Origin: an uncultured Eubacteriales bacterium
GTDB taxonomy: Bacteria > Bacillota > Clostridia > Peptostreptococcales > Anaerovoracaceae
Direction: 5' to 3'
Assembly (NCBI GenBank): GCA_902778565.1
Contig: CACYYH010000011.1
Span: 1-39,931 of the forward strand
Length of the DNA: 39,931 nt
The position numbers and the translations under genes were made by a program. The notes under the pieces were generated by a model, which saw only the letters and a list, made by a program, of their open reading frames with translations, made no database searches and had not been told where the DNA came from. Shown one piece after another: positions 78 through 26,065 of the stretch. Positions within the stretch are counted from its first letter, which is position 1. Each line of letters begins with the position of its first letter.

Positions 78-96
78 TGGAATTCTTCTGATTCGT

Positions 97-215
97 CCTC
101 ATCTTTCGGATCACAGGATCACGTAGGATTTAGCACCTTCGGAAAGACCCCTCACAAGGTCTTCGCGGGTTGCCGGGCTTCACAGGGCCTAGTCCCTCAG
201 CCGCTCTTGATAAGG
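97..215 (-). ncRNA. SAM-I (S-box) riboswitch aptamer
   Basis: The minus strand shows the S-box signatures in order: the P1 strand CCTTATC followed by AAGAG, the block GAGGGACTAGGCCCTGTGAA, then GCCCGGCAACC, a P3 hairpin, the conserved GGTGCTAAATCC, a P4 hairpin, and the P1 closing strand GATGAGG. S-box RNAs bind S-adenosylmethionine and turn off methionine or cysteine synthesis and uptake genes by termination. The matching terminator lies downstream at 58-77. The controlled gene is off the left edge, so its identity is unknown, but a methionine or SAM metabolism role is expected. Confidence 0.93.
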
Positions 216-235
216 CATATTGTATTGTCATATGT

Positions 236-21829: not shown

Positions 21830-22603
21830 ATGGCAAGAGTCGTATCAGTGGAAACAATGCGTCAGTCAGACGCCTATACCATAGCGAACCTGGTCCCCTC
21901 AAAGGAACTTATGTACAGGGCGGGCCGCGGCATCTTCGAGACCGTGGATAAATACAAGCAGGAAAAATGCGAAAAGGCCCTGGATGGCAGAGACGTATGC
22001 GAAGACATGATCGCAGCATCCGGCATGGGCTCATGCAGGAGATGGTATTTAAGCTGTCCCTACGGCTGCGCTCAGAACAACACCGGCTGGCGCGAACCCG
22101 TTGCCATAGCGGCAGGAAAGGGAAATAACGCCGGCGACGGCTACGTGGTGGCCAGGCTCTTAAGCGACAGAGGAATAGATGTGGAGCTGCTGCTCCTGGA
22201 AGAAAAGTTCTCAGAAGACGGAAAATATTACTATGACGAGTGCATGGAAGCAGGAATCCCTGTGAAAATGTACGAACCCGGCATGGATCTGTCAGGCTAC
22301 GGCACGATCCTCGATTGCCTGCTTGGCACAGGATTCTCGGGAGACGTGCGCGAACCCATGGCTTCATTTATCCGCGGGATCAATGCCGCGGGTGAAGCAG
22401 GCACCTTCATAGTAGCGGCTGATATCAATAGCGGCCTCAACGGAGACACCGGAGAAGGCAGTCTGTTCGTGAAGTCTGACCTTACGGTGTCCATCGGAGA
22501 TTTCAAGTTCGGCCACTTCATCGGCCTTGCAGACGAGGCCATGAAGGACAAGGTGAACGTGGACATCGGAATAGAGATCATCGGGGAAGTGAAAGAGATA
22601 TAA
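21830..22603 (+). CDS. nnrE: NAD(P)H-hydrate epimerase, single domain with a cysteine-rich insert
   Basis: A 257-residue YjeF N-terminal-type protein that epimerises damaged (hydrated) NAD(P)H so that a dehydratase can repair it. Family motifs are ELMYRAGRG, AAGKGNNAGDGYVVARLL and DCLLGTGFSG. The ADP-dependent dehydratase domain found in bifunctional homologues is absent. Between the first helix and the GKGNN motif there are about 40 extra residues (about 45-88) with five cysteines (47, 57, 69, 76, 80), which I do not recall from typical members. AGGAGG lies just upstream of the ATG. Confidence 0.85.
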   Translation: MARVVSVETMRQSDAYTIANLVPSKELMYRAGRGIFETVDKYKQEKCEKALDGRDVCEDMIAASGMGSCRRWYLSCPYGCAQNNTGWREPVAIAAGKGNNAGDGYVVARLLSDRGIDVELLLLEEKFSEDGKYYYDECMEAGIPVKMYEPGMDLSGYGTILDCLLGTGFSGDVREPMASFIRGINAAGEAGTFIVAADINSGLNGDTGEGSLFVKSDLTVSIGDFKFGHFIGLADEAMKDKVNVDIGIEIIGEVKEI

Positions 22604-22621
22604 ATTCATTTTAGAAAACAG

Positions 22622-22665
22622 TTGTGTCAGTGCCCCTCAAAATGAGGAGTGCTGACACAATTTTT
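22622..22665 (+). terminator. Terminator of the epimerase gene, first unit of repeat array 2
   Basis: TTGTGTCAG (22622-22630) pairs with CTGACACAA (22652-22660), and the stem continues inward through CCCCTC/GAGGAG with few mismatches, about 17 bp in all. TTTTTCTGTTTTTT follows. It is a clear intrinsic terminator and also unit 1 of array 2. Confidence 0.85.
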
Positions 22666-22917
22666 CTGTTTTTTGTGTCAATCTTGGGAAAAAGGGCACC
22701 TTTGACACAACTTTTTTTGTTTAAACTGTGTCAAAATATGAAAATCAACTCGAAATGACACAAAAAGAGAATGTTTTAGTGTCAAAATTATAATTCAAAC
22801 GAGATTTGACACAAAATCAATAAAAAAGTTGTGTCAAAAAAGACATTTTAATGATATTTGACACAATCATTTGTTTTTTTGTGCCAAAAAAGAAAAAATG
22901 AGCAGCTTTGACACAAA
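22622..22917. repeat. Inverted-repeat array 2: six alternating copies of TTGTGTCAAA and TTTGACACAA
   Basis: Forward copies are centred near 22626, 22677, 22731, 22783, 22833 and 22882. Reverse complements are centred near 22656, 22706, 22760, 22809, 22860 and 22910. They alternate strictly, with a period of 49-54 bp, forward-to-reverse distance of 26-30 bp and reverse-to-forward of 21-25 bp. Sequences between copies are unrelated. In unit 1 the forward copy ends CAG and its partner begins CTG, where unit 2 has CAA and TTG, a compensated pair change. The forward copies of units 4 and 6 have one altered base each. The array occupies the gap between the convergent epimerase and rubrerythrin genes. 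No ORF with coding character lies in it. Confidence 0.88.
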
Positions 22918-22930
22918 AGGACAAAACAAT

Positions 22931-22964
22931 AAAAGAAAAGAGACCCGGAGGTCTCTTTTCTTTT
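22931..22964. terminator. Bidirectional terminator downstream of the rubrerythrin gene
   Basis: A 15-bp perfect stem, AAAAGAAAAGAGACC / GGTCTCTTTTCTTTT, loop CGGA. It has T-rich tails on both strands and lies between array 2 and the minus-strand rubrerythrin gene. Confidence 0.88.
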
Positions 22965-23017: not shown

Positions 23018-23557
23018 TTAACCGAAGTATCTCTTAAGTAATCCCTCAAGAGCCTTGCCGTGTCTTGCCTCGTCTCTTGCCATTTCATGAACGGTGTCAT
23101 GGATAGCGTCGAGTCCGAGTTCCTTAGCTCTCTTGGCGAGGTCGGTCTTGCCCTTGGTTGCGCCGTATTCAGCGTCAACTCTCATTTCAAGGTTCTTCTT
23201 GGTGGAATCGGTAACTACTTCGCCGAGAAGCTCTGCAAACTTAGCAGCGTGCTCTGCTTCTTCATAAGCAGCCTTTTCCCAGTAAAGACCGATCTCGGGA
23301 TATCCTTCTCTATGTGCAACTCTTGCCATTGCAAGGTACATACCTACTTCGGAGCATTCTCCCTCAAAGTTTGATCTTAATCCTGCAAGGATCTCAGGAT
23401 CAACGCCCTGTGCTACGCCTACAACGTGCTCAGCAGCCCAAGCTCTCTCTTCGTCCATCTTGTTGAACTTATCAGCGGGAACGTGGCAAATAGGGCATTC
23501 TGCCGGGGGAGTATCTCCTTCATGTACGTATCCGCATACTGTGCAAACCCATTTCAT
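23018..23557 (-). CDS. Rubrerythrin with N-terminal rubredoxin domain (reverse rubrerythrin, NADH peroxidase type)
   Basis: A 179-residue non-haem iron protein. An N-terminal rubredoxin domain has Cys5, Cys8, Cys21 and Cys24. The remainder is a ferritin-like four-helix bundle with Glu/His iron ligands in [25 protein letters not shown] and a final [12 protein letters not shown]. The rubredoxin-first order is the reverse-rubrerythrin type of clostridia, which reduces hydrogen peroxide in the cytoplasm for oxygen tolerance. A GGAGG ribosome-binding site precedes the ATG. No convincing promoter or PerR box was identified upstream. Confidence 0.92.
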
Positions 23558-25460: not shown

Positions 25461-25915
25461 TGAAACTCGATTTCACGCTGGCAAAAAAATTCTCCAGAAA
25501 CAACATCAAAGGCCTTGAACTCAGAACGGCCTCTCTCGAGCGGACCGTTGTTTTCAATACTTCCGGCAAGGGCTATGAGAAGGTCAGGGCGGCTCTGGAT
25601 GCTTTTATGAAAGAAGAAGAGAAGGAAGGCCGCACTCCTGAGGTGAAACTCAAGGGGATAGGCAAGTCCTACGAGGTTTCGGGGAAGGATACTTTAAGGT
25701 TCCTGCTGAAGGTGAATTTTATCAATGAGAGCCACAACGATTTCATCGATTTCTATAACCGTGAGATACACTCTATTGGAGAACCGGTGGAAATGGATCT
25801 GGATGAGAAGGCTGCTCTTGTTAAAATGACCGCGGAGGCTGAGTCTGAAGAAGAATTTTTTGCCGGACTATTGCCAATCATAGAAAAGTATGATATAGGT
25901 ATATTTAAGAAGTAA
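25460..25915 (+). CDS. Unknown protein downstream of the NifU-like gene
   Basis: A 151-residue charged protein with no signal peptide, no membrane segment and no motif that I recognise. Its ATG overlaps the stop of the NifU-like gene (TAATG), so translation is coupled. The FMN riboswitch begins two bases after its stop codon, and the promoter for that riboswitch appears to lie inside its last codons. No function is proposed. Confidence 0.8.
   Translation: MKLDFTLAKKFSRNNIKGLELRTASLERTVVFNTSGKGYEKVRAALDAFMKEEEKEGRTPEVKLKGIGKSYEVSGKDTLRFLLKVNFINESHNDFIDFYNREIHSIGEPVEMDLDEKAALVKMTAEAESEEEFFAGLLPIIEKYDIGIFKK
25871..25899 (+). promoter_or_regulatory. Candidate promoter of the FMN-riboswitch transcript
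   Basis: TTGCCA (25871-25876), a 17-bp spacer ending in TGA, and TATAGG (25894-25899), within the end of the upstream coding region. Confidence 0.5.
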
Positions 25916-25917
25916 TC

Positions 25918-26038
25918 TGTTTCAGGGCGGGGTGGAAGTCCCCACCGGCAGTATAGTCTGCGAGCTTGAGAGCATCGTCTCGATGGTTGATCCGGTGAGA
26001 TCCCGGAACCGACAGTCACAGTCTGGATGGGAGAAACA
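25918..26038 (+). ncRNA. FMN riboswitch (RFN element) aptamer
   Basis: All conserved blocks are present: TTCAGGGCGGGGTGGAAGTC, CCCACCGGC, then GTCTGCGAGC, TGATCCGGTGAGATCC and GACAGTCACAGTCTGGATGG, closed by GAGAAACA pairing with TGTTTC at the 5' end. RFN elements bind FMN and shut off riboflavin synthesis or uptake genes. It lies upstream of ribU with a terminator between them. Confidence 0.97.
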
Positions 26039-26065
26039 CGAGTATTTAACTTGTATTTTTTGTGA

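Follow-up and report, generated by a model that had tools for sequence, protein, structure and literature searches.

A solo intergenic array of palindromic units and its probable link to a family of putative PD-(D/E)XK-like nucleases

Results

Six palindromic units lie between two convergent genes

The window, that is, the whole stretch of 39,931 nucleotides that was analysed, is contig 11 of the genome designated G000; G001 to G006 are its congeners, and C and L denote contigs and loci, respectively. Between a gene for a YjeF_N domain protein and a convergent rubrerythrin gene, the window contains an array of six palindromic units of the form TTGTGTCAAA-N18-TTTGACACAA with small deviations (22622-22916; Table 1). 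The sequence-only reading had described twelve copies of one motif in strict alternation of forward (F) and reverse (R) orientation. Inspection of the sequence and a half-site script bear out the alternation and the number of half-sites; only five of the twelve are exact copies of TTTGACACAA, four having one mismatch and three having two. The same reading gave a regular spacing and an end at 22917. The regularity holds, several of the values were off by 1-2 bp (we measured 51, 53, 51, 52 and 50 for the forward and 50, 53, 51, 52 and 50 for the reverse half-sites), and the last unit ends at 22916. The DNA between the copies is indeed unrelated from unit to unit. F and R are offset by 28 in units 2 to 6 and by 29 in unit 1; the linkers between units vary more.

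Table 1 Features of the window and sister arrays in the same genome. F and R half-site starts were obtained with the half-site script.
Feature	Position	Strand	Remarks
SAM riboswitch	96-216	-	elsewhere in the window
YjeF_N domain protein gene	21830-22603	+	flanking; Pfam
Stop codon to terminator-like hairpin	22604-22930 (approximate)	none	stretch that holds the array; short and without an array in G003, G005 and G006 (by-eye comparison)
Unit 1	22622-22660	none	F TTGTGTCAGT (22622-22631), R GCTGACACAA (22651-22660); offset 29
Unit 2	22673-22710	none	F TTGTGTCAAT from 22673, R TTTGACACAA from 22701; offset 28
Unit 3	22726-22763	none	F CTGTGTCAAA from 22726, R AATGACACAA from 22754; offset 28
Unit 4	22777-22814	none	F TAGTGTCAAA from 22777, R TTTGACACAA from 22805; offset 28
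Unit 5	22829-22866	none	F TTGTGTCAAA from 22829, R TTTGACACAA from 22857; offset 28
Unit 6	22879-22916	none	F TTGTGCCAAA from 22879, R TTTGACACAA from 22907; offset 28
Perfect 15-bp inverted repeat, terminator-like	22931-22964	none	AAAAGAAAAGAGACC / GGTCTCTTTTCTTTT; outside the array
Rubrerythrin gene	23018-23557	-	flanking, convergent with the YjeF_N gene; Pfam
FMN riboswitch	25914-26042	+	elsewhere in the window
C3 array			between mnmE and mnmG (co-directional), near a parA-like gene; Pfam
C12 array			between a phosphoribosyltransferase gene and a YitT-family gene (co-directional); Pfam
C23 array			3' of the DNA polymerase III alpha gene and upstream of G000:C23:9524-10330; Pfam
C25 array			before the CitMHS transporter gene

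At one mismatch or fewer, TTTGACACAA occurs ten times in the window, nine of them inside the array; the mean in 100 shuffled sequences was 2.4 and the largest value was 8. Paired units numbered five in the window, compared with a mean of 0.14 and a maximum of one in 50 shuffles.

The array is probably an insertion in the G000 lineage

In G003, G005 and G006, comparison by eye placed a terminator-like hairpin directly 3' of the same YjeF_N gene, with no array. For G003 and G006 the next gene is rubrerythrin; the contig of G005 stops within the same downstream sequence. In G001, G002 and G004, a different gene lies to the right of the YjeF_N gene, and the stretch examined has no TGTGTCA site. 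Because the array is absent at this gene in all six congeners, it is probably a lineage-specific insertion. Most simply, about 0.3 kb was gained in the G000 lineage between the stop codon and the terminator, a gain whose target-site marks lie beyond the resolution of congeners this distant. The sequence-only reading had staked its proposal on similar arrays existing in close relatives, at this locus or elsewhere: relatives of the array do occur elsewhere, and none occurs at this locus in the six congeners.

Sister arrays show constraint on half-sites and spacing

When the gap was left free, exact searching recovered 23 units from five contigs of G000, and the internal gap was the same in all of them; besides the window array, the genome has four further arrays (Table 1). 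The names YjeF_N, rubrerythrin, parA-like, mnmE, mnmG, YitT, DNA polymerase III alpha and RidA-type (Ribonuc_L-PSP), as well as the integrase in L063 and the helicase of L225 mentioned below, were checked with Pfam. For the gene beside the C12 array, which we take to be pyrR, Pfam gives phosphoribosyltransferase alone; the names pfkA, IS3-like and Suf are likewise presumed.

The five G000 arrays and one array of G005 comprise 38 units, of which 37 have an internal offset of 28. The C3 array and its counterpart at that locus in G005 share the linkers 22, 25, 32, 15 and 22 when both are read in one direction. The window array has 22, 25, 23, 24 and 22, and the five-unit C12 array has the mirror order 22, 24, 23 and 25. 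Both the C23 and C25 arrays contain the run 22, 25, 13, 25 and 22, and these two align at 74.5%.

The orthologous mnmE-mnmG arrays of G000 and G005 align over 294 bp with no indel. Identity is 111/120 in half-sites, 35/84 in loops, 11/24 in loop centres and 40/66 in linkers; in the flanks, 40 bp per side is identical at 12/40 and 9/40 positions. The earlier suggestion that something keeps the motif and the spacing while the loops change is therefore well founded. This comparison indicates that the half-sites of the older mnmE-mnmG array are under strong constraint, with selection on half-sites and spacing. In G003 and G004, mnmE and mnmG almost abut in the sequence examined, with no array. The longest linker at this locus (L018 7961-8002 and the matching stretch of L022) is near-identical in G000 and G005; it contains TATAAT on the mnmG strand and may hold a promoter.

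Dispersal is not common to every family of arrays, since no second copy of the TTTACGCG array was found in G000 with one mismatch or none. G000 also has a further dispersed family of units, TTACGTGACAA...TTGTCACGTAA, in pairs 61 bp apart (C7:45402, C18:22626-27527 and C49:1439-1538), with no cognate gene identified.

Spacings follow the DNA helix and unit centres are A/T-rich

From 61 arrays, both gene-linked and solo, we collected 128 distinct spacings, each measured from one half-site to the next of like orientation. These spacings range from 39 to 129 bp and cluster near 43, 53, 62, 73, 84, 95 and 106 bp. When periods of 8 to 14 bp were scanned, the best fit lay at 10.5-10.6 bp (R 0.70), with phase 0 at 10.5. 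R was 0.63 for the 61 spacings outside 48-57 bp and 0.66 (n=19) for a separate bacterial family, introduced below. Words from control open reading frames (ORFs), some of which may come from real arrays, gave R 0.22 (p 0.11, n=44). Nominal p values are too small, because arrays of the same family in one genome are treated as separate. The clusters at several multiples of 10.5 bp do not depend on that non-independence.

The four central bases of the spacer are 91-95% A/T, with A and T used alike, as compared with 46-53% at positions 12-16 (37 units, window unit 1 being left out). More generally, A/T content at the centre of a 26-36 bp dyad exceeds that of its spacer in 38 of the 44 scorable arrays and in 26 of 30 gene-linked ones. 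Of the six arrays in which it does not, three are TGGGTCA arrays of G004. Seventeen of the 61 arrays had been dropped from this count (15 with too few pairs and two without a 26-36 bp dyad).

The equal use of A and T at the spacer centre points to a property of double-stranded DNA. The sequence-only reading had listed RNA hairpins, a multi-site protein-binding array and a barrier between convergent transcripts as roles, and had stressed a paired change in unit 1 that keeps its stem. That change is real, but it does not bear the weight placed on it: among 22 deviating arm positions in 38 units, it is the only one with the same change in both arms, and random re-pairing reached at least one compensated deviation in 967 of 2000 trials. 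At the array, no Rfam family reached its gathering score; elsewhere in the window, only the FMN and SAM riboswitches did. Thus, the arms do not co-vary and, given also the interchange of A and T at the centre and the helical phase, the RNA hairpin role was dropped. As a general role, the barrier is not supported either, because sister arrays separate co-directional genes (mnmE/mnmG and phosphoribosyltransferase/YitT-family). A promoter reading of TTGACA inside the half-site was set aside by eye, the distance to a -10 element being unsuited. Of the proposed roles, the protein-binding array agrees with the fixed offset, the A/T-only centre, the whole-turn spacings and the link to a gene family described below. 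The array therefore reads best as a double-stranded DNA binding array.

A family of PD-(D/E)XK-like proteins is encoded beside arrays

At five founder loci (L020, L064, L106, L126 and L150), the array stands upstream of a gene whose product, about 262-305 amino acids long, has a PD-(D/E)XK-like C-terminal part. One of them, L020, is the C23 array with the half-site of the window array; the window array itself is solo. Neither Pfam (searched with 5 and 16 proteins) nor NCBIfam gave a model at a meaningful level for the linked proteins, PHROG matches were weak, and PDB gave no convincing relative. The C-termini of PADLOC PDC-S68 models match all five founders, and HEAT_CxxC_PDDEXK matches two of the five. 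In 57 proteins, the acidic residues E, E, D and E are kept in 98-100%, and PD belongs to the near-invariant core; the last core motif is EH-x-G, not the canonical EXK. On these motifs and profile matches, we regard the linked protein as a putative, PD-(D/E)XK-like nuclease.

A profile built from the five founders matched 181 of 296 genomes of the bacterial family at E 1e-6 or better, with up to nine matches per genome among the matches listed, some of which may share only the C-terminal domain; these counts come from a genome sample in which many assemblies are incomplete. In a search of the phylum, 13 of 398 genomes had matches. Full-length homologues outside the family, among the matches listed, occur in G468, G548, G572 and G722 (one other family of the same class), and in the other eight phylum genomes with such listed matches the match was confined to the C-terminal part, usually within a longer frame.

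Among 30 listed loci, an array lies within 600 bp upstream of the gene in 14 and downstream in three, while none of the 30 shuffled upstream regions had one; without the five founders, the numbers are 9/25 and 3/25. The wider set comprised 64 homologous frames, including contig-end fragments and one stop-interrupted gene counted as two frames (63 loci). An array was present on either side in 44 of them, upstream in 35 and downstream in 12 (39/59 on either side without founders). The array is downstream and not upstream at L189, L174, L210, L203 and L219. The rate for control ORFs was 37/492 (Fisher 2e-27 against 44/64), made up of 18/248 in pieces of congeners, 7/157 in other family members and 12/87 in the order; this rate is raised, because the control pieces include some arrays of their own, as well as at least two of the array-linked genes (L106 and L126). 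By a stricter score, 32/64 frames and 9/492 control ORFs had an array. The one array found in 155 kb of the order, in control piece L136, has repeats of about 120 bp and looks unrelated. In the separate bacterial family of G468, G548, G572 and G722, whose loci were picked solely by protein similarity, arrays were present at six of nine loci, six of the nine being from G468.

Against the link between gene and array stand the 20 of 64 homologous frames in which the detector used found no array. No such gene lies beside five of eight further array loci or beside nine of the ten loci of G004 described below; this is expected of solo arrays, which lend no support by themselves. G005 has one TTGTGTCAA (TGTGTCA) array; its incomplete assembly gave seven matches, including a fragment, and none is a gene of the TGTGTCA type. 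This weighs against a strict requirement for the gene. Many arrays are solo.

Two further observations concern these loci. Before many array-linked genes of the genus, a conserved element of about TCGTATACAATTNCGGCATATTG is found, apparently just upstream of the promoter (by eye; L189-L193, L195, L206 and L207). At L106 (G003:C4, 12189-15536), a stretch with a RidA-type gene and an array-linked gene is present as an inverted duplicate, which may be an assembly artefact.

Half-sites differ among genomes and genes

Arrays with other half-sites are present in other genomes. G004 has TGGGTCA/TGACCCA arrays at ten loci, mostly with a period of 53, and G256, which belongs to another genus, has arrays of AGGTCAC-type sites. 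In G001, a TGGGCCA array adjoins a Y1-transposase match (a chance find). At L063 (G004:C23, 1901-4360), a TGGGTCA array is split by an insertion bearing an integrase-core gene and adjoins arrays of two other half-sites, GTAGCCTGA and TCAGACGCAA.

Detectors that use no motif were also run, and wide versions replaced a limit of 40-75 bp on the period, avoiding a built-in period. The arrays that these found in random pieces were ACAGTA and AGGATA (G001, 120 kb), CAACTA (G003, 107 kb), GACCTA (G005, 80 kb) and ACCACG (other family members, 253 kb). The wide detector found none in the examined pieces of G002, G006 and G256; the narrower version (40-75 bp) found an AAATGT array in G006. Shuffle controls gave 0/20 with the 40-75 bp detector and one array in three passes with the wider one.

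Half-sites mostly differ between congeners and between linked genes of one genome. Among the 34 proteins whose array is clear, similarity of half-sites was moderately correlated with protein identity (Mantel r 0.29; 0/5000 permutations). By part, r was 0.26 for the N-terminal and 0.30 for the C-terminal part, so the N-terminal part is no stronger. The half-site closest to that of L020 (TTGTGTCAA, C23 protein) is that of L196 in G006 (CGTGTCAA), and the two proteins are 66% identical in the C-terminal and 27% in the N-terminal part. L064 (TTGGGTCAA) is nearly as close in half-site to L020, with protein identity of only 35% in the C-terminal and 14% in the other part. Thus, similar half-sites also occur with distant proteins. 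At the RidA locus of G000 and G006, identity is 97% between the RidA-type proteins and 54% between the array-linked ones; by eye, the half-sites are not the same.

TGTGTCA arrays in other phyla and on mobile elements

A scan of the genome collection for TGTGTCA arrays returned 23 loci. In Chitinophagaceae, the half-sites are interleaved 14 bp apart in unrelated intergenic places (L031, L040, L043, L047, L028, L032, L034 and L042). The founder profile gave one match in seven such genomes searched, limited to positions 115-208 and lying in a 751-aa open frame, and no full-length linked protein was found in the two Chitinophagaceae genomes searched for it. With the half-sites interleaved and a partial match in one of seven genomes, a shared origin with TGTGTCA arrays in other phyla was set aside. 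Seven other loci of the scan, Firmicute and Bacteroidales, are by eye of REP type with TGTGTCA ends (L030, L035, L041, L037, L038, L045 and L048); their offsets are 22/29, the 29 being imposed by the search pattern.

A scan of viral contigs for arrays gave three loci, none with a regular array like that of the window. Three protein scans of viral contigs were run; two gave no relative, and the third gave the domain, which ends a helicase (L225). Plasmids gave four partial matches. Phages gave three records, one of which, unannotated, covers 95% of the query at 27% identity. On these results, a viral, phage or plasmid origin was rejected.

Discussion

We consider it quite probable that the window array is a solo (trans) copy of the binding-site array of a nuclease-array system. 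By its half-site it is a solo member of the TTGTGTCAA family, and its cognate gene is likely the one at C23. The protein would act as a dimer that holds two half-sites, perhaps by its N-terminal part. This arrangement would place the nuclease-like domains over the A/T-rich centre, and neighbouring dimers would be aligned on one face of the DNA along the array. We would guess that the array beside the gene gives the protein control of its own gene, and that a nick or cut at arrays, followed by repair from another array, could produce copies at new places, in a manner comparable to that proposed for RAYT proteins and REP sequences.

Tentatively, we go further and propose a new class of self-propagating repeats, a possibility that we would not yet call probable. 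Here, a single PD-(D/E)XK-like protein would be a natural two-module site-directed nuclease that recognizes half-site, spacer of about 20 bp with an A/T cut or bend point, and half-site. It would co-evolve with its own helix-phased arrays and copy them to new intergenic places, with many paralogues of separate specificity per genome.

The arrays may instead be operators only. The linked protein would then be an autoregulating DNA-binding protein, a nuclease or former nuclease, and solo arrays would be regulatory or titration sites moved through general recombination and not by the protein. The excess of upstream arrays (35/64 frames, with 12 downstream), the position of several of them behind a promoter-like element (by eye) and the strong constraint on half-sites at the older mnmE-mnmG array all agree with this explanation. 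It does not readily account for the five loci where the array is downstream and not upstream, for solo arrays between convergent genes (the window, L065 and L067) or for nuclease-type acidic residues that are 98-100% conserved, and we regard it as somewhat unlikely.

It is improbable that the arrays organize the chromosome by binding a host protein that has nothing to do with the linked gene. The regular helical spacing, the intergenic positions and the mnmE-mnmG copy near a parA-like gene would suit such a role; however, half-sites differ among congeners and genes and correlate with the adjacent protein, and the window copy is missing in congeners.

Among the closest known counterparts of the proposed nuclease-array system is REP/RAYT, which it resembles in life cycle. 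REP sequences are described as dispersed, species-specific, intergenic palindromic repeats in alternating orientation with the cognate gene adjoining (PMC2817692, PMC3116915 and PMC8266576), and RAYT genes are reported to change more quickly than adjacent genes and in step with their repeats (PMC2817692). REP/BIME elements and REPINs with RAYT share with the present arrays the alternating orientation, the dispersed intergenic places and a linked gene, which is here of another kind. On this likeness to what is described for RAYTs (PMC2817692), the arrays could themselves be REP/BIME elements mobilised by a RAYT (HUH, Y1) transposase acting on single-stranded hairpins. We judge this very improbable. 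The linked proteins are PD-(D/E)XK-like and have no Y1 family among their Pfam matches, and PF01797 was matched in G001, G004 and G006 but not in G000, G002, G003 or G005 (incomplete assemblies). Furthermore, the present arrays have bipartite half-sites, a long A/T-centred spacer, whole-turn spacings that track the DNA helix and no compensation between arms. The nuclease-array system would thus differ from REP/RAYT by its protein and its double-stranded sites.

A guide-RNA array of the TIGR type with the variable stretches as spacers is scarcely credible: short conserved repeats around variable stretches of constant length beside a gene for a single protein with nuclease motifs do recall TIGR-Tas, but the repeats here are symmetric, mutually reverse-complementary half-sites, spacings advance in steps of 10.5 bp, the centre takes A or T alike, no Nop family was matched when 5 and 16 linked-family proteins were scanned with Pfam, and the unit sizes differ from the alternating 8-12-nt repeats, 9-nt spacers (up to 12) and 36-nt RNAs of TIGR arrays with their Nop-domain protein (PMC12045711).

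Two other systems share single features with the present one. TnsB-type arrays at the ends of Tn7-like transposons have multiple inverted protein-binding sites in intergenic DNA (PMC8649781). Here, in contrast, alternation is strict over up to 24 half-sites, the linked gene is single and small, and no tnsB was recognised among the ORFs listed beside arrays. PDC-S68 of PADLOC has a related C-terminal part of about 120 amino acids, the same domain that ends the helicase of the viral contig. Its models, however, have 1202-1273 positions as against about 265 amino acids in array-linked proteins, and only the C-terminal end aligns. In full-text searches of an open-access library, we found no description of a protein-plus-array system of this kind; the nuclease-array system is apparently undescribed.

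The linked family is present in 181 of the 296 sampled genomes, often in several copies, and lacks any meaningful match to a Pfam or NCBIfam model; its link to arrays gives it a testable biochemistry. Many natural pairs of a protein and a half-site of about 8-10 bp are on offer. If our proposal is true, a REP-like life cycle would be shown to operate on double-stranded sites through an unrelated protein, and for a class of anonymous intergenic repeats it would become possible to predict which protein binds them.
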